The translations under genes and the position numbers were made by a program. From the NCBI RefSeq assembly GCF_029962835.1, contig NC_080573.1, positions 36,201,001-36,265,000 of the forward strand: a stretch of 64,000 nucleotides of DNA. Direction: 5' to 3'. This document shows, one piece after another, positions 26,426 through 54,908 of this stretch. How positions within the stretch are numbered: the first letter of the stretch is position 1; every line of letters starts with the position of its first letter. A model generated the notes under the pieces. That model was not told the DNA's origin. It did not search any database and saw nothing but the letters and a program-made list of their open reading frames with translations. Origin of the DNA: Magnolia sinica (lineage: Eukaryota > Streptophyta > Magnoliopsida > Magnoliales > Magnoliaceae).

Positions 26426-26426
26426 C

Positions 26427-27399
26427 TCATTTGATATTGGTGAATATCGCCTTATCAGCTGTCATGTGTCTAGAACATCCACTATCCAGGTACCATCTTG
26501 AGTCGCTAATAGCTTTGAAAGTTGTGTTGGCTACAAGACCTGTAACCTTTGGAACCCATTTCATTACGGTTCTAGGTTTAAGAGTATCTCTTGATTTTTG
26601 TTGCATTTGGGAGTTAGGATTTCTCCTTTTTCTATTAGCTTCAATTTCATCTGAGTTGGATTTCGGAAGCTCTTTGAGCAAGTCTACAATTTTTCCAGCT
26701 ATAGGTAATTTATTATTCCTTTGATGTTTATAGCTGATGGCATTATTATTTATTTTAGGAACTTGAAAGATTTTTGAGTTTTTGAAATCATTACGATTGA
26801 AACATCGTAAAGTCTTATCTTTAGAGTTTGTGGATTCTCCCTCTTCTTACGAAGATAGGAGCAGAATCCTTGGATTTCAAAAAATTATCTTTAATATAAC
26901 CCAGATCAGACTTGTCACCACATCGTTTTGATGAAGTTAACAATTTTTCAAGATTTTGGTCTCCAATGGCATATTTCCAAGTGTCCTTTGAACTCAGAAG
27001 GGAAGAAACTTCGAATTTTAGTTTCTCATTTTTTGTTTTGAGTTTTTGCAATTCAAAATATTCAAAACTTAAATCTAATTTTGAATTTTCAAATCAATCA
27101 GAAAATTGAGATTTTTCTAAAACTACTTTTTCAAGTTCTTCTTTTAGTTTATCATATTTTTCTTTTTGAATTTTCAACTTGTTGCAATTTTATGACTCTC
27201 TCTATATAGGGCATTGTAGGCATCTTAAAGATTGTCTTCATTTTGATTTTTAGGATCACTTCTGAGATTTTCATAGTCAGATATATTACAACTATCTGAA
27301 GAAGTGACTCTAGCTTGAATCATAAAGGCTTTCACATCATTTGTATTTACATTTTCTTAGTCTGTTTCATCAGACTCAAAAGTACTTTCGAAATCAGAT
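26427..27399 (-). pseudogene. Element C protease and 3' part of gag, truncated
   Basis: The piece 26427-26681 has TFKAISDSRWYLDSGCSRHM, the copia protease site with D-S-G, and is preceded by the KPRTVMKWVPKVTGLVA linker that D also has. To the right, 26821-27051 matches the coiled part of the D gag (DTWKYAIGDQNLEKLL against DTWRYAQGDPKLEKLL). Gag is cut at 27399, where the LTR edge of E begins; the zinc knuckle and start lie beyond the cut and are lost. Confidence 0.82.
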
Positions 27400-29740: not shown

Positions 29741-31725
29741 TGTGTATAAAACACAAACACCACGATCGGCCCACACATACATCCATCGATGTGGGTCCCA
29801 CCTGTCTAGAACGAATGGAGGACAGGGATGCAGAATACATAAATCAAGGTCGGTCCCATCCCACACGTGCAACATGTGTGGGGTGGGCCCCACACATCTG
29901 CCAAATGGAGGATGACAGTGGCAAAACACATACCTTGTGAGCAGACCATAGAACTCACTGGTGTAAGTACAGCAGCTAAGCAACTGCGTGCTAATCTGCA
30001 TCGTTGTAGATGAATGGCTGGAAGATCACATATATCATGGGTCCCACAGAATTTGCAGATGTCATACAGCAGCTATACCGCTGGTTTGATAGACCAGCCC
30101 ACCTGCTTCCCACCGTCCATGGATTGGATTGTGTGGATACAACACATCATGTAAGCCCCATGTGCTGGAGGCAACACGTTGTCCAGGTGGGCCCCACCTC
30201 CAGTGACCACATGTGTCACCAAGGTGGGCCTTACATGGATGGACAGGGTGGATTAAAACCCCTACATCATGGTGGAATCCCACGTGGGGCCATTATATAT
30301 AACATATATATATATATTATATTGTTTTTTTGTTTAAACATGTTAGCATCTAGCTTCCTAGATGGACAGCTTGGATGCAAGGCATATACATCAAGTGTGG
30401 CCCCACACGTGGGGTGGGTCCCACCGTCCAAGCAATGGACACTGTGGATGGAGGGTGTGGATATAATACAACAAGGTGGGTTCCCACCGCACCGTCCAGA
30501 GATCTCTAGACGGTGGGGATATGAAATAAATTCATCAAGGTGGGTCCCACCCCCACACATGTCGGTGGGCCATGCCTCCAAATGGGTGGATGATTTTAAT
30601 ATAACATATAACACGTGATGGGGTCAAAACTTGCTGACGTCACTAGTAGTGGGGTCCACTGTCCTAGCTTGTTGGACGATCGACTAGGATGAATCCCACA
30701 CATCACATGGGCCCCACATGGATGGGCTGCGTACTTCAGGGGTGGGTCCACACGTGTGGGACCCACCAGCTTGTAATATTAAGCTGATATTTGTATTTTC
30801 TTTCATTTGGGCCTATCCAGACAAACAGGCAGTAATCCCATCCGCTGGACAGTCCAGCAAGGTGGGCCTAACGCATGGACGACATGGACATGATACATAC
30901 TTCATAGGTGGGCCACACACACACACACATCAGGTGGGCCACACCTCATCATCATCAACGTCATATAAAAAGGAAGAGAGAGAGAGAGAAGGAAATGGCA
31001 AAGATGGGAGGAGCTCTGCCACCATGAGCTCCTCCATGTACATACATCAAGATGGGTCCCGTCACAAGTGGGCCCTCAATGAAAATCAAGAGTTGGATAT
31101 TCTAAATCACCCACCATTTACTCTTCTTCTTAGATCTGTGGAAAACTAAGCTCCTTGGCTCCTTCTTTGACAGTTGATGATGAAGATTGAAGGGTTGAGA
31201 TGAGGGATTGGGTGGTAAGGAGTGGGCCACACCTTGCTTCTCCTCTCCTTAGGATTTTTCTCTCATGGTTGCTTGGGATTTGGTGGAGAATGGGATGGGA
31301 TGGAGTGATGTATGAGAGAGAGGGATGGGTGTTGTAAGAAAGTGTTTGTAAGTGTTATAGTTTATAACCCTTTTGTTGTCAAATTTGTGGTGCCAAAGAC
31401 ACTGTTATGAAGCTTGCATCTGTGAAGAACAATGCTCTACTCAAGATTAGCTTTGTTTGACAAGCACTGTTCACAAGTCAAGAATCTCAAGAAGCTTTCA
31501 AGTTCAACCTCAAGATCTCAAGAAGCTTTCAAGTTTGAGCTCCATCAAGACTTCAAGCCTTGCTACTTCAAAGGTCTCTTGTCTCCTATATTCAATGTCC
31601 TTACTTCACTATTGAGGTATGACTGGCCTTAGGTTGACCTTTAGAGTAGGTAATTCTGAATACATAATTCATATGTTTTATATAAGTGAGTTTAGGCTGT
31701 TCTAAGGCTAGTCTTAGACTTTGTT

Positions 31726-32039
31726 CGACTAGTCCTAGTACTGCTTCGACCTGTCTAAGAATTTCCTAGATCAGTCATAAGTTTGTCGCAAAATTCAGAT
31801 ATTTTCTATTTGGCTTCGACTAGTCGTACGAACAGTGTTGACTGTTTTTTCGACCTGTCGTAGAGCTATGACTCAATGTATAGTGTTAAAGATTGGCTAG
31901 CTTTGACTAGTCGTGTGAAACCTACGACCAGTCGAAGGGGACCTACGACCAGTCGTAAAACTGCCAGATCTTATTGCGCCCGAATTTTCAAATATCTGTT
32001 GGTTCTACGACCAGTCGTAGAGGTCTTTAGACCAGTCGA
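31726..32039 (+). promoter_or_regulatory. Array of CGACYAGTCG palindromes in the U3 of element D
   Basis: Sites or near sites are at 31726, 31747, 31817, 31851, 31904, 31925, 31946, 32008 and 32029. Neighbours are often 21 bp apart (31726-31747, 31904-31925-31946, 32008-32029). The best copies extend to TACGACCAGTCGTA. The array ends 19 bp before the TATA box, which suits binding of a dimeric activator. Confidence 0.75.
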
Positions 32040-32057
32040 AGACGTGATTTGTTCACC

Positions 32058-32065
32058 TATAAATA
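32058..32065 (+). promoter_or_regulatory. TATA box of element D 5' LTR
   Basis: TATAAATA in the context CACC-TATAAATA-GAGC; the 3' LTR has the same box at 40889-40896. Confidence 0.8.
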
Positions 32066-33154
32066 GAGCACGAATCTTAAAATTAAATAACGAAATTGAA
32101 GCTAATTTAATTCAGCCTTCTGAGAGATAAGTCTGTGCTCCATTTTAATCTAAGTGTGCATATTTAATATTCTCTTTCTTTAGCTTTCCTTATTTGATTT
32201 TGTTCCTGTATTCCAATCTTATTTGAAAAGTGGAATTGCTGTATTCCGTCTTCTTAGAATCAAAAACATATAGAGCTACGCCCAATTTGGTTTAATTTAA
32301 AATCTATTAGAACCTAGAACCATTATTAAGAGAGTATTGGACATTAAACTTTAACATTTAAATCTCTACTCCAACTTGGTTCTTCTAGGCTACTACAATG
32401 AAGGAGAAATTCAGGTATTTTACATTTATGTCATTTACTTTCATTTGATTTTTCTTTTGGGATTTTCCAGAAAAACCTCATTGTATTGGTTATCTGAGCA
32501 GAGCTAGGAAAACTCAGAAGAGGGGTTTTTTAAATTGTGTAAGCCCACAAAGAAAAATAAAATTGTGAAGGTTTTTTGGTGGACCTGGAAAACCTATCTT
32601 TGATAGTGAACGCTGATATCACCTGTGTGAGGATATTAGGAGTGGAGTAGCGCTGTGTGGCTGTTGTTGAACAGTTGGTGTGCACATAGGCGAACCACTA
32701 TAACTCTTTGTCTTATGGTTTGAATGCTTGCTTAAGTTTTTATCTTTTTTCATTTAAATTTGTGGAATGTATGTGTGGATGTGAATGTTGTAAAATTTAC
32801 ATTTCAAGCACAGGGGGAATGTTGTAATAATTTAGTTTTAAATTCTTGCAATTTATATCAATTCCTTGCTATTTATTCATTCCTCTCTGGTTTGAGTTTT
32901 TGATACAAAGGACATTCTAAAAATAAGGTTGTCCTGCCATAAACCCTTGGTTTTTATGGTGTAAGGTTGTCCTTAGAACTGAATTCGTATCAACTTCTCA
33001 ATACTTGTTTAGTGAGGTTGCTTTTATTTCAGCATTGTGATTTGATTTAGTTTATTTGGCTATCTATCTTTCTTTATTCCGCCGTTAAAGTTTTATTTTA
33101 GCATCGTCCTATTCACCCCCCCCCCTCTAGGACGTATAGCTAGGCCATTTCAAG

Positions 33155-33167: not shown

Positions 33168-33236
33168 TAATAGCTTGCTCTTATTGCTTTTTATTTGGAT
33201 TTAATTCCTGAGCTAACGATCTAAGCTATATAGAAG

Positions 33237-35010
33237 ATGTCAAATTTTGATATCCTATCAGTCACTAGGCCTCCACCCTTTAATGGCTCCAACTATACCT
33301 ATTGGAAAGCCAAGATGAGGATCTTCCTCAAATCAATGGATGAGAGTGTGTGGCAAGCCACAATGACTGAATGGAACTCACCTACCACTGAAGTGATTGG
33401 TATTGATGGTTCAAAATCAATGAGAGTAACACCATATTTCTCATGGACTAACCTTCAGAAAAATGAGAGTAGTGTTAATGCAAAAGCACTAAATGCAATC
33501 ACTTGTGCACTATCACCGGATGAGTTTAAAATAATCATATCCTATGATCCTGCAAAGCAAGAGTGGGATATATTAGAAATGACACACGAGGGTACTACAA
33601 TTGTCAAAAAATCTAGAGTCTAACTCCTCACAACCAAATTTGAAGAAATTCATATGGAGGAAAATGAAATGTTTATAGACTTTTACACTAGATTAAATGA
33701 CATTGTAAACTCAATGTGGGGTCTTGGTGATAAAATCCCAGAAAGTAAAGTGTGTGCAAAGATACTATGCTCACTTCCTGAACGGTTCAACTCTAAGGTA
33801 ACCGCGATCTAGGAACTTCGTGATACAGACAATATGAGGGTAGAAGAACTAGCTAGTTCTTTACAAACCTATGAGTTAAACTTTAAAGCTCCTAAAAGTA
33901 AATCTATCGCTCTTAAATCTTCTAAAGAAAATTCTGATTCTGAAGATGATATGGCTCTTTTAGCGAAAAAGTTTTACAAGATTTTCAAGAGTAAAAAGAG
34001 GGTTGATTTTCAAAAATCAAATGATAAGAAAAGATCAAAACCCAAATCTAAAACTTGGAAGTCTTTGAAAGATAATCAATGTTACAACTGCCAAGAATAT
34101 GGGCATTTAGCAAATAAGTGTCCTAAAAAGGACAAACCCAAAGGGAAGGGTATGTTGGCTACTTGGGATGAATCATCTGATTCTGAATCTTCTTCTAAAT
34201 CAGAAGATTTTGAAATCGAGTCGGGCAGTGAAGTTAAAGCCCTTATGACTCTAGTCAAATTCACTTTTTTAGATCATGGTGATTCAACTAGCGAAGAAAA
34301 TCTGAATAGTGATTATGAAAATGAAGATGATCTTCAAGATGCTTACAATACCCTATACAAGGAAAGTTGTAAAATTGCTGTCAAACTTAAACTTCAAAAA
34401 GAAAAGTTTTTTAAACTTAAAGAATGTTTTGAATATCTTGTTTTAGAAAAAATTCAAATTTTAGATTGTTTTGAAAAATTAAAATGTGATTTAGAGTTCA
34501 AAACCTCCCTGATTGAAAATCTGAAATCTGAAAATGAGAGACTTAAAAATGAAGTATCTTCTCTTCTAAATTTAAAGGATACATGGAGGTATGCCCAAGG
34601 AGATCCAAAGTTAGAAAAACTTTTATCTGGATCTAGAAAATATGGCGACAGATCCGGGTTGGGCTATGATAAAAATGTTCCTCTTAAACAAAAGTATCCT
34701 TCTCCTAAGTTTGTGAAAGGAGAGTCCTCTAACTCAAAAGGGAAAAATACTAGTCGAGGTTTTTTTAAAAATACAAAAGCTTTTCAAAAACCTAGAGGTA
34801 GCTATGTCAACTTCAAAAATCAGAACAGAAACCCACTAGCTAAAAAGATAGTGGATTTACTCAAGAAGCTCTTAAAATCTAACTCAGTAGGTCATTCTTA
34901 TAACAACAGTCAGAAGAAGACCAACTATACTCCTAAACCCAAAACAGTTCTAAAATGGGTTCCTAAAGTTGCCTGCTTGGTTGCCCACACTACTTTCAAA
35001 GCAACAAGCC
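33237..35010 (+). pseudogene. Element D gag, with a few stops
   Basis: The ATG at 33237 begins MSNFDILSVTRPPPFNGSNY and YTYWKAKMRIFLKSMDES, the DUF4219/UBN2-type gag of SIRE/Maximus elements. A stop at 33620 (a glutamine codon in relatives) and one near 33808 break it. From 33834 it is open for 436 codons, with the knuckle CYNCQEYGHLANKC at 34080-34121, an acidic stretch and a long lysine-rich coiled region. The protein forms the particle and binds RNA. Confidence 0.88.
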
Positions 35011-35150
35011 ATTTAAAGTGGTACCTAGATAGTGGATGCTCCAGTCATATGATAGGCGATAAGGCCTTATTCACCGATCTTAAAGATATGACTGATGGGT
35101 CAGTTACTTTTGGTGATGGAAACAATTGTAAGATTATGGGCTAAGGTACG
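35011..35150 (+). pseudogene. Element D protease
   Basis: HLKWYLDSGCSSHMIGDK near 35015-35065 is the copia protease site, with D-S-G in WYLDSGCS. The frame is open from gag and ends with a TAA at 35142-35144, where relatives have a glutamine. The protease releases the mature proteins from Gag-Pol. Confidence 0.85.
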
Positions 35151-36465
35151 GTTCAACTCTAGAACCTTCCTTTGTTTAAAAATATTTTATTTGTTGAAGG
35201 ACTGAAACATAATCTTCTAAGCATATCACAAATTTGTGATAATAATCATAGTGTTCGGTTTTCTAATCAAAGTTATGAGATTCTAAACAACAAGGGTTCA
35301 GTAATACTAACTGGACGTAGAATGTCTGAAAACTGCTATATTATTAGTGAATCCGGCTCATCTAATCAATCATGTTACATGGTCCATACAGACAAGACTG
35401 ATTTGTGGCACAAATGTCTTGGACATGTAAACTACTGAATTCTATATAGATTGAGCAAACGAGAACTTATAAGAGGTCTACCCAAACTATAAAAGTTAGA
35501 TAAAATATGTGGTGAATGCCAAATTGGCAAACAAACGAGGAACTCACATAAAAAGGTGAATTCTAATACCACATCAAGACCACTCAAGCTTCTCCATATG
35601 GATCTTGTAGGACCTACTAGGACGGAAAGTCGAGGTGGCAAAAGATATATCTTGGTAATAGTAGATAACTTTACCAGATATACATGGGTTGTCTTCTTAA
35701 GGGACAAATCAGAAACCTTGGAAGAAGTGAAAAAGGTTCTTAAAAGGATTCAAACTGAAAAAGGTTCTCAAGTTAGTAAGATTCATAGTGATCATGGATC
35801 TAAATTTGAGAATAACAGTTTTGAGAAGTTCTGTAGCGACCAGGGAATATTACATGAATTCTTAGCGCCCAAAACTCCACAATAAAATGGAATCGTTGAA
35901 AGGAAAAATAGAGTGCTTCAAGAAATGGTTAATGTCATGTTGAATAATATGAAGCTCTCTAAGAATCTTTGGGCTAAAGCAGTCAATACAGCTTGCTATA
36001 TCATTAACCGGGTTTACACTAGTAAAGGTAATAATAAAACGACTTATAAAATGTGGTTCGATAAAAAGCCTACTATAAAAAACTTTCAAGTTTTTGGTAG
36101 CAAGTGCTATATTTTACAAGATCGTGAATATCTGGGAAAGTTTAATACGAAAAGTGATGAAGGGATCTTTTTAGGATACTCTTTAAACAGTTGAGCTTAT
36201 ACGGTTTTGAACAAAAGGACCGGTGTGATTCAAGAGTCTATCAATGTAGTCATTGATGATCACTTAAACACACCAGTCTCAAGTTCAGATAATGATGAAA
36301 TACTAGTAATTGATAAATCTGATACTTCATCTAATCAGACTGATTCTGAACTAAGGACTGTTAAAGATCATCCAATCACACAGATTCTTAGAAACCCTCT
36401 CACTGGTGTTCGTACCCATAGACAACTTGAGGATATATGTAATTACATATATTTTACATCTCAGA
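35151..36465 (+). pseudogene. Element D integrase, several stops
   Basis: The zinc-binding part is LWHKCLGHVNY followed by CGECQIGKQT (35400-35540). The core at 35556-35885 has LLHMDLVGPTRTESRGGKRY, with the first Asp, and KIHSDHGSKFEN, with the second. The third residue is in NGIVERKNRVLQEMV, just after a TAA at 35882-35884 that replaces the second glutamine of PQQNG. The copia-type KPTIKNFQVFGSKCYIL block follows at 36067-36115, and a TGA at 36192-36194 replaces an arginine. All catalytic residues remain. Confidence 0.88.
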
Positions 36466-37550
36466 TAGAACCATCTAACGTAAAAGAAGCTCTTGCTGAT
36501 GAAAACTGGATTGTTGCGATGCAAGAAGAACTTAACCAATTTGTGAGAAATGATATTTGGTATCTCGTACCTAGACCTAAAGATAAACACATCATTGGAA
36601 CCAAATGGATTTTCAAAAATAAGTCTGACGAGCTTGGCAATGTTATTAGAAACAAGGCTAGGCTAGTGGTACAAGGTTACACTCAAATTGAAGGCATTGA
36701 TTTTGATGAAACCTTCGCACCAGTAGCACGTCTTGAATTAATTAGACTCTTTATATCCATTGCGTGTGTTAAAAAGTTTAAGATTTACCAAATGGATGTG
36801 AAAAGTGCTTTATTAAATGGTGATCTACATTAGGAAGTCTATGCTGAACAACCGATGGGTTTTGAAGATCCCAAAAATACTGATCATGTGTATTGCCTTA
36901 AAAAAGCACTTTACGGTTTAAAACAAGCTCCTAGGGCATGGTACGAGAAACTAACAAAGTTTCTATTAAGACATAATTTTCAAATGAGATGTGTTGATAA
37001 GACTTTGTTTATCCAAAAACATGATGATCACATTTTAATAGTACAAATTTATGTTGATGATATCATTTATGGATCTACCTGTACTGACATGACTATTGAG
37101 TTTGCAGATTTGATGAAATCTCAGTTTGAAATGAGCATGGTTGGAGAATTGAATTATTTCCTTACGTTGCAAGTAAAGCAAAAATCTAAAGGAATGTTTA
37201 TTTCTCAATCTAAATATGCTATGAATTTGATTAAGAGATTTGGATTTGAGAATGGTAAGAAATTTGATACTCCTATGAGTACAACTTTGAAACTCTCAAA
37301 AGATTCTACAGGTAAAAATATGGATCCAAAATTATATCATAGTATGATTGGTAGTTTACTGTATTTAACTGCTAGTAGACCTGATATCGCTCTAAGTGTT
37401 GGTATTTGCGCTAGATATCAGTCTGATCCTAAAGAGTCGCACTTGATTGTTGTCAAGCGGATTATACGATATGTCACAAGTACTGTTAATCTTGGTCTCT
37501 GGTATCCTCATGAGACTAGTGTTCAATTAGCTGGGTACTCGGATGCTGAC
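36466..37550 (+). pseudogene. Element D reverse transcriptase, one in-frame stop
   Basis: Copia RT in order: [68 protein letters not shown] (stop TAG at 36831-36833), KKALYGLKQAPRAWYEKL and the catalytic QIYVDDIIYGSTC near 37050. The open piece 36855-37553 goes on to GSLLYLTASRPDIALSVGIC. All motif residues are intact. It is the best-kept pol part of D. Confidence 0.9.
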
Positions 37551-38181: not shown

Positions 38182-38450
38182 GGGAAAAATGCTTCTTCTT
38201 CTTCATTTCTTCTTCACTCTCCAACGGGCCGACGCATGACCAGTCGAACCCATCCTTCAAATCTTTAAGGTTAGTGCTCATTTTACATTTTTCTTGTAGA
38301 TTTGAGTCTATATTTCTTCTATTTGACTCTTGAAGTTTTCTATTTTAAATTTTGTTGAGATTTGGAGTTTTTCTTGGGTAAAATCTGATTTGAGAAAACC
38401 CACTTCTCAATCCTTTGCAACTCTCTATTTCCTTGAAATCCTTGTTGCAA

Positions 38451-39608
38451 ATGGCATTTAGAGGTAGAAAAACAACATCCTGTGGTCCTTCTTCTTCCTC
38501 TAAATCAGCCCCTATTACTAAGCGTCATCTTCGGGCTCCCAAGGATGATCCATCCTATGTTCGGGACTTCAGATTACGTAATGTTATTGTTGAACATCCT
38601 ATTGACATTAATCATGTTGCTCCATTTGAGATCCTTCCTATGCTCCAAGCTGTAGGTTGGGATAACTTATTACATTGGGGTGGGCCAGCATACCAGTCTA
38701 TTGCCCAGTCCATGTTTTCATGCATATGAGATTTTTCATTGGAAAATTTATCTTTTAAGATAGCCACTAAACAAGGACCATTTGACGTTGATCGTTATTT
38801 GATTTCAGCTCTTATGGAAATTTCTGTGAATGATGAGGGCATTCTTATCCATAACTTATCTGAAAAACCCTTTGTATCTGAAAAACATATGATCACTAAA
38901 GATTTATGCAATTTGGATGTTCAATGGACTCATAAAGGGAATGCGCTTCCTTCAAAATATCTGTTACCCAAATACAGAGTTCTTCACAAAATCTTTGTGT
39001 CTAACTTGTATCCTCGTTTGGGTAATAAATCTGAATTGACTTCCTTCATGGTCCGTGTTCTTCATGATATTGCTAGCGGTGCTCATGTTTGTCTACCATC
39101 CTTGATTTGTCACTCCATTATTTACTTTCGACTCCATCCTGGTCACAGTGACATTCCTTTTGGTTATTTGATGACTGTGTTGGCTACGCATATGCTAGTC
39201 GATATGCCAGTTGGAGAGGCCCCCATCCATCATCTGATATTTAACAATTCTAATATCAATAAGATGAAGCTTGATTTCCTTCCTGGTCAAGGTGTTGGTG
39301 GTGGCAATATTGAATCTGAATGTGAGGAAGAAGCTAGTGATCTTCCTTCTGATGATATCAACATGGATGATATATTTGAAGAACTTGAATCTAATTCTAA
39401 AAATGATCCAGATTATAAGCCTTCTGAGTTTGATGCATGTCTGCGTGCATTGGAAGATAAAGTTGAGAATATGAATGTTAAGATGGAAAGCATGTCTGTT
39501 GCCCATGATTTACAATTCAAGTATATGCGCAAGTATCTTAGGCGCTTGAACAAGGGCTTGCATCAACTTGATCCTTCCATCCCTGCTCCTTCAGCTGGTT
39601 CAGATTAG
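38451..39608 (+). pseudogene. Extra ORF of copia element D (385 codons, one in-frame stop)
   Basis: The ATG at 38451 gives MAFRGRKTTSCGPSSSSK. Residues 1-35 are basic; about 38-245 form the shared domain (FRLRNVIVEHPID; ILPMLQAVGW; DFSLENLSF; YRVLHKIFVSNLYPRLGN; SELTSFM; CLPSLIC; IPFGYLM). About 285-322 are acidic, 326-368 a predicted coiled coil (LRALEDKVENMNVKM) and 369-385 a tail HQLDPSIPAPSAGSD. The only defect is TGA at codon 93 (38727-38729), where CGA is the likely original. It sits where Sireviruses carry an env-like ORF but has no signal peptide or membrane segment. The domain pattern resembles the 'putative plant transposon protein' family; function unknown. I chose the ATG at 38451 over the earlier in-frame ATG at 38415 because the basic start then matches C, A and B2. 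Confidence 0.82.
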
Positions 39609-40133
39609 TTATTTTAAGTTAGTTGGTTTGTTATAACTTTATTACTCTTGTGTTAGCTTAGCTGGTTTTGAGACTATAGCTATTTTTGACTTAGCTCCGT
39701 ATATGAATTATGTGGGCTGTTTGTGCTGGTTAATCATATCTTGTCTTATTTCCACTCATATATCTCTTTCCTTATTTCTCCTCAGCCATTTGTTCTATGC
39801 TTCCTTTGTCCTATTGTGACAAAAAGGGGGAGAATGGATATGAATGTGATGTGTGTCTAATGAATGATTATGTTATGAGGAGGGAGTAGCATTATATGTT
39901 ACTCAGGGGGAGTATGTGCAGAAGTGGACTGTATTGACTATTGAGTTACAGGTTTACATGATCATGTATGTTATGTTAAATATTAATTTACAGGTTTCCA
40001 GGATCACATATACTGGTTGATAACAACTGGTACATGATAAAACAACTGGTGCATGATTCTTTAATAAGATATTCTGTGTTATGTAACATATCTTAGGAGT
40101 GTGTTTTGTCACTAATTTGACAAAGGGGGAGAT
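39609..40133 (+). other. 3' region and polypurine tract of element D
   Basis: No coding sense. It has two G-rich blocks (39821-39833 and 39905-39914) shared with C, and ends with the polypurine tract CAAAGGGGGAGAT at 40121-40133, directly before the 3' LTR. Confidence 0.75.
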
Positions 40134-41946
40134 TGTAAGTGCTATAGTTTATAGCCCCTTTTGTTGTCAAATTTGTGGTGCCAAAGACACTATTATGAAG
40201 CTTGCATCTATGAAGAATAATGCTCTACTCAAGATCAGCTTTGTTTGATAAGCATTGTTCACAAGTCAAGAATCTCAAAAAGCTTTCAAGTTTAACCTTA
40301 AGATCTTAATAAGCATTTAAGTTTGAGCTCCATCAAGACTTCAAGCCTTGCTACTTTCAAAGGTCTCTTATCTCCTATGTTCAATGTCCTTACTTCACTA
40401 TTGAGGTATGACTGGCCTTAGGTTGACCTTTATAGTAGGTCATTCTAGATATATAATTCATATGTTTTATATAAATGAGTTTAGATTGTTCTAAGACTAC
40501 TCCTGGACTTTATTCGACTAGTCCTAGTACTGCTTCGACCTGTCTAAGAATTTCCTAGATCGGTCGTAAGTTTGTTGCAAAATTCGAATATTTTCTGTTT
40601 GGCTTCGATTAGTCTTAGGGTTTGTTCGACTAGTCATATGAACAGTGTCGACTGTTTCTTTAACCTGTCGTAGAGCTACGACTCAATGTACAGTGTTGAA
40701 GATTGGTTAGCTTCGACTAGTCGTGTGAAACCTACAACCAGTCGAAGGGGACCTACGACCAGTCGTAGATCACCTACGACCAGTAGTTAAACTGTCAGAT
40801 CTTATCGCACCTAAATTTTTAAATATCTGTTGGTTCTATGACCAGTTGCAGAGGTCTTTAGACTAGTCGAAGACATGATCTGTTCACCTATAAATAGAGC
40901 ACTAATCTCAGAATTAAATAACGAAATTGAAGCTAATTTAATTCGGCCTTCTGAGAGATAAGTCTGTGCTCCATTTAAGCTAAGTGTGCATATTTAATAT
41001 TCTCTTTCTTTAGCTTTCTTTATTTGATTTTGTTCCTATATTCCAATCTTATTTGAAAAGTGAAATTGCTGTATTCCGTCTTCTTGAAATTATAATCAAA
41101 TAGAGTTACGCCTAATTTGGTTTAATTTAAAATCTATTAAAACCTAAAACCATTATTAAGAGAGTATTGGACATTGAACTTTGACATTCAAATCTCTACT
41201 CCGACTTGGTTCTTCTGGGCTACTACAACGAAGGAGAAATTTAGGTATTTTACATTTATGTAATTTACTTTCATTTGGGTTTTCTTTTGGGATTTGCCAG
41301 AAAAACCTCATTGTATTGATTATCTGAGGAGAGCTAGGAAAACTCAGAAGAGGAGTTTTTTTAATTGTGAAAGCCCATAGAGAAAAACACAATTGTGAAG
41401 GTTTTTGGTGAACCTGAAAAACATATCTTTGATAGTGAATGCTGATATCCCCTGTGTGAGGATATTAGGAGTGGAGTAGCGTTGTATGGCTGTTGTTGAA
41501 CAGTTGGTGTACACACAGGTGAACCACTATAACTCTTTGTCTTGTGGTTTGAATGCTTGCTTAAGTATTTATCTCTTTTCATTCAAATTTGTGGAATGTA
41601 TGTGTGGATGTGAGTGTTATAAAATTTACATTTCAAGCACAGTGGGAATGTTGTAATAATTTAGTTTTAAATTCCTGCAATTTATATCAATTCCTTGTTA
41701 TTTATTTATTCCTCTCCGGTTTGAGTTTTTGATACAAAGGATGTTCTAGAAATAAGGTTGTCCTGCCATAAACCCTTGGTTTTTATGGTGTAAGGTTGTC
41801 CTTAGAACTGAATTCGTATTAACCTTTCAATACTTGTTTAGTGAGGTTGCTTTTATTTCAGCATTGTAATTTGATTTAGTTTATTTGGCTATCTATCTTT
41901 CTTTATTCTGTTGTTAAAGTTTTATTTTGGCATCATCCTATTCACC
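40134..41946 (+). repeat. 3' LTR of element D, last 36 bp missing
   Basis: It starts TGTAAGTGCTATAG and matches the 5' LTR to TTCACC at 41946 (33117 in the 5' copy), then breaks off. To that point it is exactly 42 bp longer than the 5' LTR, accounted for by two extra 21-bp palindrome units (near 40606-40626 and 40764-40785). A palindrome array spans 40515-40870 and a TATA box lies at 40889-40896. Confidence 0.88.
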
Positions 41947-41978
41947 TTATGCTCGACCCCCGAATTTCAGGGCGTTAC
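41947..41978 (+). repeat. Residual edge of an opposite-facing Tekay-type LTR
   Basis: GCTCGACCCCCGAATTTCAG then GGCGTTACA is the reverse complement of the A/B-type LTR edge (TGTAACACCCCGAATTTCG). About 30 bp remain between D and E sequence. It marks a deletion junction at the end of D. Confidence 0.6.
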
Positions 41979-42359
41979 AACTTGGGTGATGGAAAAGAGA
42001 TGGGGGCCATGCCTTATTGGTGAGAGAGGGATGGGTTGTGTACTTGACTTGTGATTAATTGATTGATGTGATGGGTTGTAGAGATTCTCTCAAAATTCAC
42101 AACACGTGGATTTTCTTCAGAAAATACACGAGCCCACAACGTCTGGCCTGGGTATCACATAGGTGCGCAGGACGGTGCATTGGAACTGCGACGATGGTGC
42201 GGTCACAATGGTACAAGTCTCATGTCAAGGCGACTCAGATCTTCAGGATGCAACTTATGGTCACGCGCAAATGGTGATACAGGTCACGGTTTTTCGAAAT
42301 TCGACCTGGAGGACGACGGGAGTGTACAGAATGGTATGGACTAGGATACAGGCCTTACA
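41979..42359 (-). repeat. 3' LTR of element E, right part
   Basis: It continues the E LTR on the right of D and ends with CA at 42358-42359, next to the polypurine tract (GGAGGGGAGAG on the minus strand, 42361-42371). It matches F 18770-18952. Confidence 0.72.
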
Positions 42360-42784: not shown

Positions 42785-43153
42785 TATCACTCCCCAAACT
42801 TAGAAACTGAACTAACAAAATTTTTGATCACCGAATCCGGTGTCACCAGCCTCTGTAGTACCCCATTCTTAGCTCTCAGTGCCCATACGCTAGATTCCGA
42901 TCATAGGATCCTACAAGGAGGATTTTCCAATGAACATTTAACTCGTAATATGCATAACCACAAGTTTACCCAAATCACAAAGGTAATATCATCATCACAT
43001 ATCCACCAGTATAAATAGTTGAATATAATGCTAACAGGGAAATACATATATCACAAATTAAAGCTCCAAAAGACCGCTGCACGCTCCAAGCTCAACGCTT
43101 CTACGACCTAACGTCACCTACACACATCTATCATGCATAAGCTTAAAGAAAGT
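42785..43153 (-). repeat. 5' LTR of element E, first 369 bp
   Basis: It begins TATCACTCCCCAAACTT (TG changed to TA) and follows 27400-27770 closely, including the CTACAAGGAGGATTTTCCAA-type block. It stops at 43153, where B1 begins. Confidence 0.8.
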
Positions 43154-44063
43154 TATAACGTCCTGAATTTCGAGGGTGCAAAGCTCTACTCCCGAGATTT
43201 AGAACATCACTAATGTATTGTAGATGATGATATTCAGATTTCTTTCATGTTCACGAGTTAAGCATGCATGGGATTATACTAGACAACATATCATTCTCTG
43301 GATTTGATTAAGTTAAGCATGTGTGAAATTCTAAACATGTCTATATAAGTATGTAGATGTTTCACAAGGTTTCTTCCAAAGTATGAGTACGTAACTGGGT
43401 TCAATATATACATATATCATTTCAAAATAAACAAAATGTGAAAATGTAAATGTGTCCAACTAAGCCCGGATGCCCCAATGATCCCCGCTTAACGATACGT
43501 GGCCTAGATTGACCCGTCTGAGAGTTGGAAGTAGGAGAATTCCTCCTCCTCATCCAAGAAGTTCTACTCCATTGCATAGATGTCATTTGTACCTGCATTT
43601 ACATTAGAGTCTGGTTGGTGTTTTAAAACACCGTCCCAGAGTGGGAGTGAGTGATCAACTTAGTGGTTCTATAAGATAAAAGTTACACATGTTATCAAGT
43701 CAATCAAAGCAGTAATGATAAAGCAGTCATAGAAATCACTTCCTAACTAGTCTTTTTAATGTAGGAATGGGGTGCAAATAATGATGTATGCCCTCACCCA
43801 TCAATGCTCCCTCAACACGTAACTCTGATTACTTATTTCGCATATGACAATACTTCCTCAACTTTGCGACTCCAACACCTTTTTGGCATATCCTAACTAA
43901 TGCAGTGTGATGCATGATCGTGTTATCCAAGTAATTAATTAAGCTCATTTGTATAGTAAGTTTGAGAAGCTAGGGTACCTCCCTTTATATCATTGACCCA
44001 AATCAAACATTTGGCATCGGACAACTGCAGTGGTCCTACTCTTATGTTCTGGATCTATCTAAG

Positions 44064-44192
44064 TCCATCACTCCTAGTTAAACACATACAATAGGCAAGT
44101 TATAGGTTCATCACTCCTGGTTAAACACATACAATAGGCAAGTTGTAGGTTCATCACTCCTAGTTAAACATATACAATAGGCAAGTTGCAAG
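44064..44192. repeat. 43-bp tandem repeat, three copies
   Basis: CATCACTCCTAGTTAAACA recurs at 44066, 44109 and 44152, exactly 43 bp apart, each followed by ATACAATAGGCAAGTT. The B2 LTR has only a diverged single or double unit at 55765-55840. Confidence 0.9.
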
Positions 44193-44211
44193 AAGTTGTG
44201 CTCGCGTTCAC

Positions 44212-44395
44212 TATGGGGAGGCTCGTCACCCCAGCGTAGGCTGACAGCATGAACATGGTGTCCCATACCACCATGCCCGGCTCACAAGTCTTAATTGCTC
44301 ATGGTCACTACAGGGAGGCTCCTCACCCTAACATAGGTCGACAGCTCAAACACGGTGTCCCATACCACCATGCCCGGCTCAGGAGTCTCATGTGG
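44212..44395. repeat. 97-bp tandem duplication
   Basis: A GAGGCTCGTCACC...CATACCACCATGCCCGGCTC block at 44218 returns at 44315, 97 bp later. B2 has a single copy at 55870-55940. Confidence 0.85.
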
Positions 44396-45565
44396 ATCAT
44401 GGTACCATGGTTAAAGTGGGTCTTTACATTGGTGAGGGGTACCTTAGATTCAAGCAAACATGTCCATACATGGTAAACACACAATACGCCAATCGGTTCA
44501 TTAGGCAAGATCGATTGGTACAGGCGTATGCTGACTTAATCGACATGAAGCGCGTGAACACCACTTGTGGCCTATCCACTGTCGACAATCATTATATGAC
44601 TCGGATTCATCAAGTTTACCTAAGGTGGTGAGACTAATTTGGCCACCTAAACAAGGACTTTTACTAGTTTCCTGGGCTACGTTTGTAGCCTTAATCCTAC
44701 TCAAATACGGCTAACAACCAGATGTAATATTTATCCTAGCATTCAACAAACAATCCATGTGGATTTCTCATATGGGCATCTCATCAAACACATAAACCAT
44801 GCTAATACAACATGCATTTGTCAGTTGATTTCATAGAGGAACATATACATACGGATAAAACAATGAAGAATCCTACCTTAATACTCGTAGTAAATACAAT
44901 TCATCAACAATTTCTCATTTAGTCAATTTATCAAACACATAGACTATGTTAGTTACAACATATGTTTTATCAATTCTTTATACGGAGAGATCTACATGCA
45001 TATGATAATGATGAATCCTAGATTAGTAATCATGGCAAGCACAATTCATTTCAACTGCTCATTTAAACATTTCAACAAACACAGATTGCATCATTTACTC
45101 ATTATAGTTCATAGGTGTATCTCATATAGAAATCAACGTATCTAAGACAATATGGTAGTAATCAAGGAAAATATAAATCATTAACTGACATGAAGGCATT
45201 GATAAACCGTAACCTAAACATTTATAGTCCGCACCTTTCATTAGTACGCTCGACTCGGACTCGGTCCAAGTTCTATGTTTTCAAAAATAAAACGTCGGGC
45301 ACCTAAATGATGAAACTAGTTAGCTAGGTTGACAAAAAACTATCTAGGAGTTTTAAATCGATATTAGGGTTGGTATTTCTTACCCGAAATCATAGCTGAA
45401 AGAGGTTTGGTAGTGCAACAGGGTGGTGATTTGGCACGTGGATTCGTGGGAGCCGATTCCTGCAGCGATCTCCCAAAATTTCTCCCTCTCTTTCCTCTTT
45501 TCTCCTCTCTCTCCCTCTAAGGTTTGTGAAATTCGGATATGGGAGAGAGGGGGTGGATTGAAGGC

Positions 45566-45573
45566 TATTTATA
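45566..45573 (-). promoter_or_regulatory. TATA box of element B1 LTR
   Basis: The minus strand reads TATAAATA, at the same place as 57195-57202 in B2 and 1031-1040 in A. Confidence 0.7.
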
Positions 45574-46379
45574 ACCTCAAACGTGATGCAAATGGCCCCA
45601 GGGCTACTTTATACATGGTTGATACCCCATGGGCGGCTATTTCTGACGAATAGGGCTCATAGGGAGGCCCATGACTCATCTACGATAGAGGGTACACTCC
45701 CTGACAATGACTCCTTGGTAGGACATGATTTTGGTGTGATCGAATAAGCCAATCGACTGTAGAGAGCCCGTCTCAGATCAACGGTCATACGTATCCAATC
45801 GGGGCCATGGTTATAAGGATAAGTGCAGGGAAATTTCCTTTCCCCATGAGTGGAGTTTGGTCACAAACTAACGGTCTGAATTCTTCAACTTTGTGTAGAA
45901 GTGAATGGCCCAATTCACTTAAGTTTCAATTCATTTTCTAAAGATATTTGCGTTTCTCATACTCTTAACTCATGGGTCAGGTTGGGCGTTTCTAGACACT
46001 AGCTGGGCTTGATTCCCGCAATGGTTGTCAAACCCAAGAGGACGGATGTCCTCCTGTAGTTTCGCGGTCATTAGACCCCCGACGTGTAGTTTAGGTCCAT
46101 TACCAAGTTTCACTATACTCCCGAGAGCGACAGGCCCTTTGGATTTCTCCTACGTCTTAAGATGACATTGGGTTAGTGGTACTCATGGTTTTAAGCCTCC
46201 CCATTTGTGAAAATAGTGGACCACGCTTAATCCACCAATTACTTAACTAAATTCCATCTAAGTTATATAACCGGACGCGGTCCTTGGGTTGCTCCGCCTG
46301 AGGTTGTACTCAGGTCTTTGTATGGATTTATCCTAAAAGTTACATTCTAACCCCCCTTAAAGAAAATTTTGTCCCCAAA

Positions 46380-47875: not shown

Positions 47876-48600
47876 TTGTTCGAAGTCTCACACGAACTCC
47901 ACCATATTCCACTCTCTTACCATCAGTGGGGCTGCAAATTCTACAGTTTTCTTGTGGCTCAATGCATCGGCCACAAGGTTGGCCTTGCTAGGATGGTAGG
48001 AGACTTCAAACTTAAAGTCTTTCAAAGTCTCCATCTAATGTCATTGCCTCATATTTAGGTCCCTCTGTGTAAAAATATACTCGAGACTCTTGTGGTCGCA
48101 AAAGAACTCGAACTCCTCACCGTAGAGGTAATGTCTCCAAAGCTTTAGTGCAAAAATGACTACCGCCAACTTCAGATCATGAGTGGGGTAATTTTCTTCA
48201 TATTTTCTCAACTATTGAAAGGCATAAGCGATCACCCTATCCTTCTGCATAAGTACACAACCCAAACCGACTTGAGAGGCATCGATGTAAATAGTATATT
48301 TAACCCCTTACTCTGGCAGCACTAATATGGGTGCAGACGTCAGCTTGTCCTTTAATTCCTAGAAGGCTGCCTCTACTTTCTCATTCCAAGCAAATATAAG
48401 ATCCGTCCAAGTAAGTTGGGATAATGGTTAGGCTATCTTGAAAAAATCTTTAATGAATCGGCGATAATAGCCAGTAAGTCCGAGGAAACTCCTCACTTCT
48501 GTGACTGAGCCGGGCTGCTCTCAGTCCTATACCGCGGTCACCTTGGCAAGGTCCACAGCAATTCCTTCCTTGTAAATTATGTGTCCCAAAAACTTTACTT
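47876..48600 (-). pseudogene. Element B1 RNase H region, decayed
   Basis: It lies between RT and integrase and is co-linear with A 3261-4000. Fragments of the family survive on the minus strand (for example the HDLKL and [13 protein letters not shown] words near 48090-48180), but no frame longer than a few dozen codons is left. Plus-strand ORFs here are antisense. Confidence 0.6.
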
Positions 48601-49256
48601 CTTCATTTCAAAAGTCGTATTTTTGGCACTGTGCAAACAACTGATTCTGCTTAAGAGTATTAAGGATTGCTTGGACGTGTTCTTTGTGGTCTTTCCGACT
48701 CTTTGAGTATATCAAAATGTCATCGATGAATACGATGATGAATCGGTAAAGATACAGCCGAAATACCCAGTTTATGAGATCCATGAATACGGCCGCTACA
48801 TTTGTAAGTCCAAATGGCAACTGATGATAGTTCTAAAAGCTATTTTCTACACATCTTCATTCCTAACGCGTAACTAATGATACCCGGACTATAAGTCTAT
48901 CTTGGAGAAGTACTGAGACCCCTTCAATTGGTCAAAGAGGTCATCTATCCTAGGCAGAGGATATTTGTTCTTTATTGTAACGTGGTTCATCTTACGATAG
49001 TCTATACACAATCGTAGCGATCCATCCTTCTTTTTCATGAATAATATTGGAGCTCCGCAAGGAGATACGCTCGGTTGTATAAAGCCCGAGTTCAATAAAT
49101 CATTGATCTATTTCCTTAATTCCTCCATCTCACATGGAGGCATGCAGTACGTCAACAAGGAGATAGGTGTTGCGCCTAGCACAAGGTCGATGGTAAAGTT
49201 GATCTCGTGCGGGAGAGGTAGTCCAGCGATCGTTCTAAATACGTTCGTGAAATCTT
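48601..49256 (-). pseudogene. Element B1 reverse transcriptase, broken
   Basis: The pieces are 49108-49256 (end of protease linker and [15 protein letters not shown]), 48889-49095 ([17 protein letters not shown] and [14 protein letters not shown]) and 48608-48820 (MPFGLTNVAAVFMDLINWVF and the catalytic FIDDILIYS). Active-site Asp residues are kept. Frame changes occur near 48830-48890 and 49096. Confidence 0.88.
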
Positions 49257-49962
49257 TGTAATGCCCTAAATTTCGAGGGTCAAGCAAAGCTCTACTCCCG
49301 AGATCCTGTACATCACTTATGCAATATGGATAATGATGTTCAGGTTGCACCCATATATAATGAGTTAAACATGAGTAGGATTATACTAAAACAACATATC
49401 ATACTCCATATATAATTAAACTAAGCAAGCGGGAGTCTGAAACATATATATTTAAGCATGTAAGTATTTCACAACCTCCAGAGTATGAGTATGTAACCGG
49501 GCTAAATATATACATGTATAGTTTCAAAATAAACAAAATGGGGAAAAGTAGATGTGTCCAACTAAGCCAAATATCCCTATAGTCCCTGAGCATTGGTACG
49601 AGGTCTATATAGACCTGCCCGAGAGCTAGAAGTAGGAGAACTCTTCCTCCTCATCCATAAAGTCCTGCTCCATCACATAAACTTCATCAACACCTGCATC
49701 TAAACTAGAGTCTGGTAGGTGTTTTAAAACACCATCTTAAAGTGGGAATGAGTGGCCAACTCAGTAGTACTATAAGGCAAAAGTTAACATGTTATCAAGT
49801 CAAACAAGTAGTAATGATAAGCAACATAACAATCACTTCCTAACTACTCTTGTTAATGTAGGAATAGAGTGCAAGTAATGATGTATGCCCTCACATCAAA
49901 GCTCCCTTACAAGTGACTCTGACAACCTATTTCGTATATAACAGCACTCCCTCAAAACAGTG
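49257..49962 (-). repeat. 3' LTR fragment of element B2
   Basis: It starts TGTAATGCCCTAAATTTCG, the LTR edge, and follows 54910-55615 closely, then ends abruptly at CTCCCTCAAAACAGTGCTAA and goes into a scrambled junction with pol sequence. Confidence 0.82.
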
Positions 49963-49974
49963 CTAATGCAATTC

Positions 49975-50720
49975 CTTCCTTAGAAATTACATCCCTGTGT
50001 AAGTACGAGGAAACTCCTCACTTTTGTGACTGAGCAGGGCTGCTCCCAGTCCTGTACCGTGATCACCTTGGCAAGGTCCATGGCAATTCCTTCCTTAAAA
50101 ATTATGTGTCTCAAAAACTTGACTTCTTCCTTCCAGAAGTCGCATTTTTAGTACTATGCAAATAATTGATTCTGCCTAAGAGAATCAAGGACTGCTCATA
50201 GGTGTTCTTCATGCTCTTTTTGACTCTTTAAGTATATCAAAATGTCATCTATGAATATGTTAATGAATCGGTAAAGATACAACCGAAATACCTGGTTCAT
50301 GAGATCCATTAATACGGTCGGTGCATTTGTGAGTCCAAACAGCATCACGAGGAATTCATAGTGCCCGAAGCTGGTTCTGAAAGCTATTTTTTGCACGTCT
50401 TCATTCCTGACATACAACTGATGATATCTGAAATGTAAGTCTATCTTAGAGAAATACTGCGCCCCCTTCAACTGGTCAAACAGGTCATCTATCCTGAGTA
50501 GAGGATACTTGTTCTTTACCATAACGTGATTTAGCCTACGATAATATATACACAACCGCAGTGATCCATCCTTCTTTTTCACGAACAATACAGGTGCTCC
50601 TCAAGGAGATACGCTCGGCCGTATAAAACCCGAGTCCAATAGATCATCAATCTGCTTCCTCAATTCCTCCATTTCACATGGAGGCAAGTGGTACATTAGT
50701 TAGGAGATTGGCGTCACACC
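49975..50720 (-). pseudogene. Element B2 reverse transcriptase, partly intact
   Basis: The open piece 50196-50588 spans [58 protein letters not shown] and the catalytic [11 protein letters not shown] in one frame of 130 codons. It is the longest RT frame among the three chromovirus copies. It ends left of 50000 in the start of RNase H (VTEVRSFLG-like text near 50010-50030). CIDYRR has become CIYYRR, a change in a strongly conserved word. Confidence 0.88.
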
Positions 50721-51239
50721 TAGCACAAGGTCGATGGTAAAGTTGATCTCACACTGAGGAAGTAATCCAAGGATCATTCTGAACACGTCCTTGAAATCTT
50801 GTACTACTGGCGTGTCCCCAAGTGATGTATCATCATGACTTTCCAACAGGGAAGCATAACAACTAATGCGGTACGGACAACTGAACTAAACTGGGAAGGT
50901 GAAGATCGTGCCCTCGGGCTCATGGACTGTCACCAATCTGATTCCACAGTCAATCTTTGCCGTCATTTAGGTGAGCCAATCCATGCCGAGGATGACGTCG
51001 TAATGATATATCTTGGTTACGATCAGGTCAATGCATACCATTCTAATCCCTAAGTCTATCGAGCAACCCTGACAAAGCTTACTGGCGTCTGTGAAGGTTC
51101 CTACAGCAGCGATGATTCTCACCCCAACCATAAGGGTAGTGTTCAGCCCAAATCACTTGACTGTAGAGCATGCTATCATTGAAATAGTGGACCCAATGTC
51201 CACTAACAGAATATTGGTGTACCTTGGATGTGAGCAGTG
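50721..51239 (-). pseudogene. Element B2 protease region, broken
   Basis: Co-linear with A 4680-5163. The SMIACSTVK-type end of the catalytic strand (about 51150-51200, with the second Cys region) and HDVILGMDWLT-like text at 50970-51000 can be read in pieces on the minus strand. The catalytic Asp lies in a short VDIGSTISMI-like text near 51170-51200. No open frame exceeds 60 codons, so the gene is dead. Confidence 0.62.
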
Positions 51240-52525
51240 ACTTTAAAAGCTAGTGGTACTACAACTGGAGATTCAGATGCTTCGGCAGCGAGCTCATGTA
51301 CTCGAGCTTGTTGCAGACGATTAAGTTGCGTTGTCATAGGTCGTTGAGGAAACCTATTTTGAGATGCAAGATGTCGGTTGAATGGTTGTGCTGGTGGTAC
51401 AGATCATAGAGGTGGAGCTGAAATAACATGTGGTGGCTGATGGTTGACCCTCTGAGGCGGCGTGAAGTCGTTGTCTTTCATCTTGGTAAAACGAAAGGGG
51501 TCAATATGGCCTGCTTTATTACAATAAGTACACCAAAGATTAAATCGCCTCGATTGAGCCAGTGGAGCCATTAGTCTGGGAGGTGAGTTCATACGCGGCT
51601 TCTTGCCGAGAAATGGTCAGTTCTGCAATTTAGGCCTAGGCCTCGGGCCCATTGGCATGAGTGTCCGAGACACTCTTTCACCATCCTGCTCATCTCACAT
51701 GGGACATGCTCACAAGCTCAGCATAGTTGGGAATGCTAGCGCAACACATCTTGGTGCGAATATCAGTTCGCAACCCTTCTGAAAATTACCACATTCTCAT
51801 TCGATCGTCTGCCAAAATCAAAGGAGCATATCTAGCCAGCTTCGTGAAACGGTTCTCGTATGCTGCTACTGTCATCCCCCTGTTGAAGGTGGAGGAATTT
51901 TCCCTCCTTTTCATTACGGTGAGGGAGAAATACTTCTCATGGAAGCGTACCTTCAAAGTACATTGTCCCACCACAGGCTAGCTTCCTTTTCAAACATGTA
52001 TGTGACTAGCTCAACCTGTTCCGCCTTAATACAATGTAACGGCCTCAACATCTTAGAGATATGATCTAACCAATACTCAGCCTCCTCAGGTCTATGAGTA
52101 CCCACAAAAGTGGGAGGACGGAGGTGCTGAAAGCTCTCGAACGGGCCACTTGTAGTCATAGCCCCAGTAGGTTGTATGGGTGGCATCGGTGGGGCCACAT
52201 TCATGTTTTGTGCGATGGCCCCCACTATAGTTGCCAGAACTTGTTGTTGTTATTACATTAGGAGCATCATCTACTCCAACCTACCAAGGGGAGAAGCCGC
52301 CTAAGGCATCTGTGGCATTGACGAAGACATACAGTTCTGACCCAAAATCGGTAGTACACTCGGTGTTGGCCCATTTATGGGGCCAGTGGCCGGTTGTGAA
52401 TCTGACATCATCTTGTTACTTGGACCCAAACTAGGGTCCGCTTGGCTATCACTCCGGTGAGGGGCCCCCTCAATCATTCCGCTAAGTGGGAGATGGGCCA
52501 TGTTCTGAGTAGTTTTAGGAGGCAT
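51240..52525 (-). pseudogene. Element B2 gag, broken
   Basis: It starts at 52525 with MPPKTTQNMAHLPLSGM. The capsid lead-in at 51953-52225 reads HLRPPTFVGTHRPEEAEYWL and FEKEASLWWDNVL; capsid text goes on at 51786-51974 (AYENRFTKLARYAPLI). The knuckle at 51500-51540 reads CTYCNKAGHIDPFR, so the last zinc ligand is Arg instead of Cys. Stops break it into four pieces. Confidence 0.84.
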
Positions 52526-54027: not shown

Positions 54028-54894
54028 AAGAGAAAGGAGCATTGAGATGGAGAAAGTGGTGGTCACAATCTCAAAGAGAGCCATTGGGATGGAAAAACTT
54101 TGAGGATGAAGTGGATTTGAAAGTATGAAGGTTACAAGACACAAAAAGGAAGGTTTTATGCTCAAATGAGTGGGAATACTATATATGAGAAGATGTAAAG
54201 GGTAGTTTTAGAGAAATAGTGGTGGAGGGGTGTAGGATGTAGAGAAAATGGGGAATTTAAATGTATAGAAATGAAGTTTTAAGAGAGAAAGAGAATCCTT
54301 GGAGAGTTTGGAGGGGTTGAAAATGGGTAAAATGAGAGAAATATGGTGATAGGAGGGTTAAAAGGGGATCCCCACATGTGGGAGGGACCCCACTTGGTCG
54401 GCCGACGGCGGCGCGTTGCCAATCGGGCGGTGCCACTGTGCCCCACTAGACTAGGCAGTGGTGCGCCATTGATCCCGTGGTGCCACCATGCCCGTCTGGG
54501 TGGTCCAGCAGTGGCCACCCCCCCCCCCATGGGGTCATATTTTGGTGCGTGGGACCCCCTAGGCCCCACCAAACCTCGTGATTTGGGTCCCTAGGCCCGT
54601 AGGACCCATTTTTCGTGATCCAACGCGCTAGTATTCGCGCCGCTTTGATCCATTTTAGGTTTGAAATTGTCAACTAACTACTCAAACCCGTTGACTGACG
54701 GCTTAGAGGCGACTTGGGTCGATTCATGTGGTCTAAGATACGTTGTGGACTAAACTACAGCGTTTAGTCTCACCCGTCGGCAAAACTTTGGGATTCTAAT
54801 GTGGTCTCTAAATTCCATTGATCCCTTTCTAAGTCAGAGTGCGTCAGAGTGCGTCGTGTTACCTATAACCCAGGTCCACTTTAATCCAAATCAT
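54028..54894 (-). other. Untranslated leader of element B2
   Basis: Matches the leader of A, with a GC-rich part near 54360-54550 and an 11-base C run at 54518-54528. ORFs there are shadows of GC-rich sequence. Confidence 0.6.
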
Positions 54895-54908
54895 GCTCTT
54901 ATATGAAC
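54895..54908 (-). other. Decayed primer-binding site of element B2
   Basis: GCTCTTATATGAAC on the plus strand stands where A has the complement of the tRNA-Met site (GATCTGATACCAAC). It is placed by position next to the LTR edge. Confidence 0.5.

Follow-up and report, generated by a model that had tools for sequence, protein, structure and literature searches.

The 64,000-nucleotide stretch of the Magnolia sinica genome analysed here (RefSeq assembly GCF_029962835.1, contig NC_080573.1, positions 36,201,001 to 36,265,000; hereafter the window) contains long terminal repeat (LTR) retrotransposons of both the Ty1/copia and the Ty3/gypsy superfamily, among which the copia elements D and C and the gypsy elements A and B each carry an extra open reading frame (ORF). 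Judging from their sequences, these four extra ORFs are almost certainly homologous. The evidence as a whole is best explained by a constrained, non-enzymatic accessory protein that spread long ago between, or into, the two superfamilies, a reading to which a probability of about 0.6 is given. An earlier note on this DNA had claimed from a set of short motifs that the same extra protein is present in all four elements, and the similarity is now found by tblastn and profile searches to extend past those motifs.

The extra ORF of D lies at 38451-39608 on the forward strand, comprises 385 codons plus a stop, and is recognised by tblastn, by profile matches and by a match to the Pfam family PF20167 (Transposase_32). 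It is laid out as a basic, serine-rich N-terminus, a Transposase_32-like domain, an acidic linker and a helix-like C-terminal tail. The earlier note had treated it as a single open frame, which it is not, being interrupted by an in-frame TGA at 38727-38729; the ORFs of C, A and B are likewise broken by stops or frameshifts. The D homologue in C is decayed and occupies about 22006-23085 on the reverse strand (tblastn; PF20167 in 22183-22650). In both copia elements the extra ORF lies 3′ of pol in the sense orientation. The gypsy ORFs, also in sense and on the reverse strand of the window, lie 5′ of gag, at 6903-8039 in A (approximate ends; longest unbroken piece 7246-7851) and at 52897-54084 in B, which the earlier note termed B2. 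The B copy is found by tblastn, by profiles and by PF20167, and is read in four pieces (53719-54207, 53521-53715, 53047-53517 and 52897-53031).

When each ORF is read in one frame, with X at stops, all four copia-gypsy pairs are significant, with 239-268 positions aligned, 25-29% identity, E-values of 2e-19 to 3e-25 and bit scores of 75.5, 92.8, 74.7 and 87.8. Counted in aligned columns, the protein identity between copia and gypsy ORFs is only 25-31%, so that recent copying between the elements is rejected; within superfamilies, identity is 71% for A and B and 43% for D and C. In tblastn searches within the window, the longest D piece (38730-39605) finds C at 42% identity (E 4e-60), B at 30% (E 8e-18) and A at 28% (E 3e-14), while the N-terminal piece of D finds C at 39% (E 5.5e-17). 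A profile-profile test, the comparison of hidden Markov models that the earlier note had proposed as a check, was made between a copia set (D, C and the database relatives P0001 and P0002, described below) and the gypsy pair. Although both profiles are shallow, the result is significant, with a probability of 99.5% and an E-value of 2e-22 (single pair) over 238 columns. The outcome that the earlier note had named as refuting its claim, a lack of any such match, did not occur. The copia profile retrieves B at 120 bits and A at 91 bits, compared to 4.9 bits for the best of 2000 shuffled sequences.

This match is collinear along the domain and is not confined to the tail. The principal shared motif is present at the claimed sites, as LHKIFVSNLYPRLGNKSE in D, LHRIFTSNVYPRSGNKFE in C, LHHICTYNMYPRWSNRIE in A and LQHICTYNVYPRWSNHIE in B, and is followed in all four by T.FM, CLP.L and PF..L in the claimed order. 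Two further motifs had been described too strictly: PFG.L and F..R.V..E...D are exact in D, A and B, but C has PFAYL and FCTRDIIIERTVN in their places. The evidence for homology has one weak point. Taken alone, the N-terminal third of D (38394-38726) is not listed with the gypsy profile at E-values up to 10, and this region by itself seems a weak link between D and the gypsy pair; the N-terminal piece of C (22657-22926) matches the same profile with an E-value of 4.5e-4.

Relatives of the extra ORFs are also found among database proteins. P0001 is an unbroken relative of the copia ORF with 297 amino acids; it is 65% identical to the D piece and spans the whole of that piece, without the N-terminal part. 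Five other close relatives of the plant copia ORF (P0002, P0005, P0006, P0008 and P0009) are deposited as Mycobacterium kansasii, and these entries are most likely plant DNA that contaminates bacterial assemblies. On the gypsy side, P0003 (Magnolia sinica LOC131244136) resembles the extra ORF without its mid-domain, with 62% identity to B over 124 amino acids when compared to window positions 53719-54084. This protein suggests that the annotated genes of plants include some retrotransposon ORFs.

The extra ORF has very probably been selected within the elements. Between A and B, the ratio of nonsynonymous to synonymous substitution rates (dN/dS) is 0.17 (95% confidence interval 0.11-0.27) and 0.10 (0.03-0.24) in two pieces of the extra ORF, and 0.14, 0.13, 0.20, 0.20 and 0.32 in five comparisons of pol; in two of these, a single A piece is paired with duplicated segments of B. 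For D and C, where dS is very high (saturated) throughout, the ratio is 0.21 (0.10-0.35) in the extra ORF and 0.27, 0.10, 0.13 and 0.10 in pol, where a further piece gives no defined value. The values for the extra ORF (0.10-0.21) are therefore as low as those for pol (0.10-0.32) of the same elements. Decay after insertion raises dN/dS, so that these values, if anything, understate the constraint that acted before insertion. Purifying selection before decay is well supported; it is clear in the gypsy pair and less sure in the copia pair because of the saturated synonymous sites. The earlier suggestion that retention of the ORF implies its use by the element is strengthened by ratios well under 1 and comparable to those of pol. 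It is suggested that the extra protein does a useful job for the elements and is kept about as strictly as their replication enzymes.

By its sequence, the extra ORF is related to PF20167 without being filed as a member. When one piece per ORF is scanned, the matches reach 28.6 bits in D (38730-39605, E 1.6e-6), 22.4 bits in C (22183-22650, E 1.2e-4), 21.7 bits in B (53047-53517, E 2e-4) and 16.3 bits in A (E 0.0095). The relatives P0001, P0002 and P0004 score 30.7, 33.6 and 29.4 bits; every match scanned here falls under the curated cut-off of 45 bits. In A and P0002 the match runs from 3 to 150 and from 3 to 144 of the 177 profile positions, collinear over the length of the domain, and in the broken pieces it covers positions 74-176 (D), 92-168 (C) and 86-167 (B). 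The N-terminal pieces of D and C given above, and that of B (53719-54207), have no Pfam match. Nine of the 16 members of the alignment match PF20167 at E-values up to 10 (best 4.5e-8), and no other Pfam family is matched by any member at that limit. In addition, five of eight proteins found with the mixed alignment carry PF20167.4 in precomputed protein-database annotation. Transposase_32, one of two families that the earlier note had named for a Pfam check, is thus the only Pfam match in the copia and gypsy groups alike, though under the cut-off. The other, the plant mobile domain PF10536, is matched by none of the 16 members at E-values up to 10, in a search whose HMMER filters drop weak matches.

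The model of PF20167 covers neither the acidic linker nor the tail of the window ORF. A basic N-terminal stretch precedes the conserved domain in D, C and B, and a strongly acidic stretch comes after it; the acidic part of A is weaker. In a comparison of six sequences, some of them fragmentary, the residues that do not vary across the copia and gypsy groups are of a structural kind (W, N, Y, P, C-L-P and P-F). Only five acidic residues are invariant in that comparison: E48, close to the N-terminus, and E288, E294, E313 and E335, which fall within or beyond the acidic stretch. The core shows no acidic catalytic triad. Hydrophobicity, taken as the Kyte-Doolittle mean of 19-residue windows with a threshold of 1.6, has maxima of 1.38 in D, 1.21 in B, 1.52 in A, 1.62 in P0001 and 2.24 in C. 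The maximum of A comes from windows 9-12, upstream of the ORF, within which the maximum is 1.21. No window exceeds 1.6 in D, in B or within the A ORF, and no consistent membrane helix is found. Two AlphaFold models, one for a gypsy piece and one for the copia relative P0001, are both poor (mean predicted local distance difference test scores of 56.5 and 46.2), and have a common order over the shared part, in which two strands are followed by helices. A long C-terminal helix is predicted in P0001, and inspection by eye makes one likely in B as well.

The possibility that the similarity arises from chance, composition bias or translation of decayed DNA is virtually negligible. It is true that the copies contain stops and frameshifts and that their acidic tails are of low complexity. 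However, none of the 2000 shuffles approaches the real scores, the collinear match covers the domain and not the tail alone, P0001 exists as an unbroken relative, and dN/dS is far under 1; the profile, shuffle and dN/dS results are taken to have refuted this explanation already. As for how one protein came to two superfamilies, vertical descent from a copia-gypsy ancestor is implausible because the position of the ORF differs and its presence in surveys is patchy (PMC6317226; published work is cited here by PubMed Central identifier, from the available part of each source). Because such vertical inheritance is unlikely, the module would have entered both superfamilies long ago, either because retrotransposons passed it to one another or because both took it from a single source. 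Two independent captures from one third source (related host genes, or a single DNA-transposon gene taken up twice), without any exchange among retrotransposons, are possible but somewhat doubtful. PF20167 is described in Pfam as a putative plant transposon protein, the dependence of ORF position on element type fits separate insertions, and a large survey reads such ORFs as very fast evolving or independently acquired (Neumann et al. 2019, PMC6317226). On the other hand, pairs of copia and gypsy ORFs score 75-93 bits and matches to PF20167 only 16-29 bits, which hints at one shared subfamily, although this contrast sets pairwise against profile scores, and whole frames against pieces, and is not decisive. 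No third-source gene outside the elements was seen, in a search that did not extend to plant genomes. The earlier proposal that one module was taken up by two superfamilies is supported by the profile match and by the common match to PF20167, but the "transposon source" that it offered is based solely on the Pfam label.

Two enzymatic or structural identities for the protein have also been considered. It is unlikely to be a genuine retrovirus-like envelope (env) protein of the membrane, even though the ORF occupies the env position in D and C, and by tradition the 3′ ORFs of Sireviruses bear the label env-like, with transmembrane and coiled-coil domains (PMC3414828). The same protein is located 5′ of gag in the gypsy elements, and the hydrophobic stretch that might be taken for a membrane segment in C (2.24) and P0001 (1.62) lies inside the conserved domain, with lower values in D (1.38) and B (1.21). 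That the ORF encodes a real transposase or nuclease from a captured DNA transposon is very unlikely. The name of PF20167 is all that speaks for it, while the five invariant acidic residues, as far as six partly fragmentary sequences go, form no spaced core triad, and the 16 alignment members match no other Pfam family at E-values up to 10.

The preferred reading, that of a constrained accessory protein without enzymatic activity, would make the product of the extra ORF something other than a transposase or a membrane envelope. This product would consist of a mainly helical domain, then a strongly acidic linker, then a tail able to oligomerise. A nuclear or ribonucleoprotein-associated role is put forward tentatively. 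Such a factor might aid the RNA or cDNA of its own element, through evasion of silencing, RNA export or handling of the integration complex, and nuclear entry is another candidate for a shared host step. By analogy, the role may be comparable to that of retroviral accessory proteins. A shared host step seems likelier than an envelope or transposase function because the host elements differ in gene order, in replication proteins and in the position of the ORF.

Element D is a copia element bounded by a 5′ LTR at 31347-33152 and a 3′ LTR at 40134-41946 (end approximate), both on the forward strand and about 90-92% identical to each other. The Kimura two-parameter distance between them, 0.083, is approximate, as the 3′ LTR end that was used slightly overshoots the true LTR. 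At window positions 41946-41985 the 3′ LTR seems to lose its end, apparently by truncation, against sequence that resembles the end of a gypsy LTR. No target-site duplication of D is seen, and the five bases that flank each side differ. The gag and pol pieces of D (33234-37550, +) follow the copia order Retrotran_gag_2, zf-CCHC, Pol_BBD, rve and RVT_2, with the integrase (rve, 35493-35882) ahead of the reverse transcriptase (RVT_2, 36195-37550). The copia pol region of C (23736-27339, -) is 71% identical to D in DNA, with rve at 25582-26064.

The octamer AGGGGGAG, the polypurine tract of Sireviruses, occurs five times in 64 kb. Three of these occurrences are located between the extra ORF and the 3′ LTR of D, at 39825-39832, at 39905-39912 and at 40124-40133 (all +), the last being a terminal octamer plus AT that adjoins the TG of the 3′ LTR. 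The other two lie behind, that is 3′ of, the extra ORF of C, at 21535-21542 and 21714-21721 (-); neither precedes AT/TG, and the LTR junction of C is not delimited. Multiple AGGGGGAG polypurine tracts and an AT/TG attachment site have been described for Sireviruses (PMC2829016). D bears Sirevirus hallmarks, and C bears some of them.

The gypsy elements look like chromoviruses. The pol pieces of A (1820-5105, -) follow the gypsy order of protease, reverse transcriptase, integrase core, SH3 and chromodomain; RVT_1 is followed by rve and then by Chromo, the last of which is marginal (E 2.8e-5, 24.4 bits compared to a 25.1-bit cut-off). In B, which is ~77% identical to A in DNA, SH3_Tf2-1 is the only match in the one piece that was scanned. 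The earlier note had mentioned Ogre-type elements as carriers of extra ORFs before gag; an Ogre-type identity for A and B is set aside in view of the chromodomain of A. From this chromodomain and the 5′ ORF, A and B would belong to the Tekay clade. B has a 3′ LTR at 43142-45678 and a 5′ LTR at 54898-57307 (both -, approximate ends), which gives an LTR length of about 2.4-2.5 kb. Among five candidate gag pieces of A and B, one matches gag: the piece of B at 51789-51977 (-), between the extra ORF and pol, with Retrotrans_gag at E 2.9e-4 and 21.4 bits (cut-off 24.1). The extra ORFs are placed 5′ of gag because of this one weak match and because the protease of A lies beyond.

Within B, at 48474-50800, an LTR-like piece (49256-49963) is 90% identical to 54909-55615 and is flanked by two copies of a 0.8 kb pol segment (48474-49256 and 49999-50800; 80%). 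It is possibly the product of an insertion or of recombination. A further gypsy element at 58681-63998 (-), Athila-like by eye, has unusually long frames of 850 and 451 codons amid heavily decayed neighbours. The short stretch downstream of its pol contains no convincing match to the extra ORF. A candidate at 61382-61972 (+; E 0.065) was discarded, being antisense within the gag-pol region of this element.

In the literature that was searched, no statement of a copia-gypsy link for this ORF was found; supplementary ORF tables were outside that search, and an earlier report is possible. The MASiVEdb paper calls the origin of the env-like gene in Sireviruses and some gypsy elements unknown (PMC3414828), and the extra ORFs of SIRE elements have been read as being of different origins or as evolving very fast (PMC6317226). 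The env-like proteins of the Athila/Calypso lineage are described as having little primary sequence in common (PMC1142308), and a screen of 121 genomes reports no domain gain in plant copia elements (PMC9289625). Vicient and Casacuberta (2020) review such ORFs, without a copia-gypsy link in the available text, and the accessible parts of PMC11963269, PMC3599292 and PMC13013560 contain nothing on one. A link of the env-like ORF to a gypsy ORF matters because published descriptions treat the env-like ORFs of Sireviruses as unrelated to one another and their origin as unknown. That both superfamilies carry a homologous, selected ORF speaks for a single family, and for a gene that element classes either exchanged or captured in common. 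Moreover, the function becomes testable, since the protein must serve two elements with different replication machinery, independent of an envelope position. It is conceivable, though still a tentative proposal, that the "envelope-like" gene of Sireviruses, the 5′ ORF of chromoviruses and the 3′ ORF of Athila form one accessory-gene family, a portable cassette between superfamilies that encodes a host-interaction factor and not an envelope. If this were true, genes long treated as unrelated would have a common origin.

The ORFs of D and C resemble the env-like ORF of Sireviruses (eORF-3′F, SIRE clade) in lying between pol and the 3′ end with AGGGGGAG tracts behind them (PMC2829016). A 3′ ORF has been reported in 74% of SIRE elements (Neumann et al. 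2019, PMC6317226). Unlike the window ORFs, the published SIRE ORFs, compared here by their description, are divided among 19 groups that have little similarity to one another, and no link to gypsy ORFs is stated in the available part of that survey (PMC6317226). The ORFs of A and B resemble the additional 5′ ORF of Tekay chromoviruses, being located ahead of gag, in sense, in elements with a chromodomain pol. In sunflower, 500 of 523 Tekay elements have the 5′ ORF, which is described as not similar to known domains, whereas the window ORFs match PF20167 weakly; the same authors report no amino-acid similarity between the sunflower and grass Tekay ORFs (PMC11728184). The 3′ ORF of sunflower Athila elements, which belong to a different gypsy lineage from A and B, is called related to PF03078 (Athila ORF-1) and, like the window ORFs, has partial similarity to PF20167, at positions 133-312 (PMC11728184, the only paper in the searched literature to mention PF20167). 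The ORF3 genes of bdelloid rotifers, which differ from the window ORF in encoding enzymes (GDSL esterase and DEDDy exonuclease) and in being found in animals, provide a precedent for one type of accessory ORF in unrelated classes of retroelement (PMC5408684).
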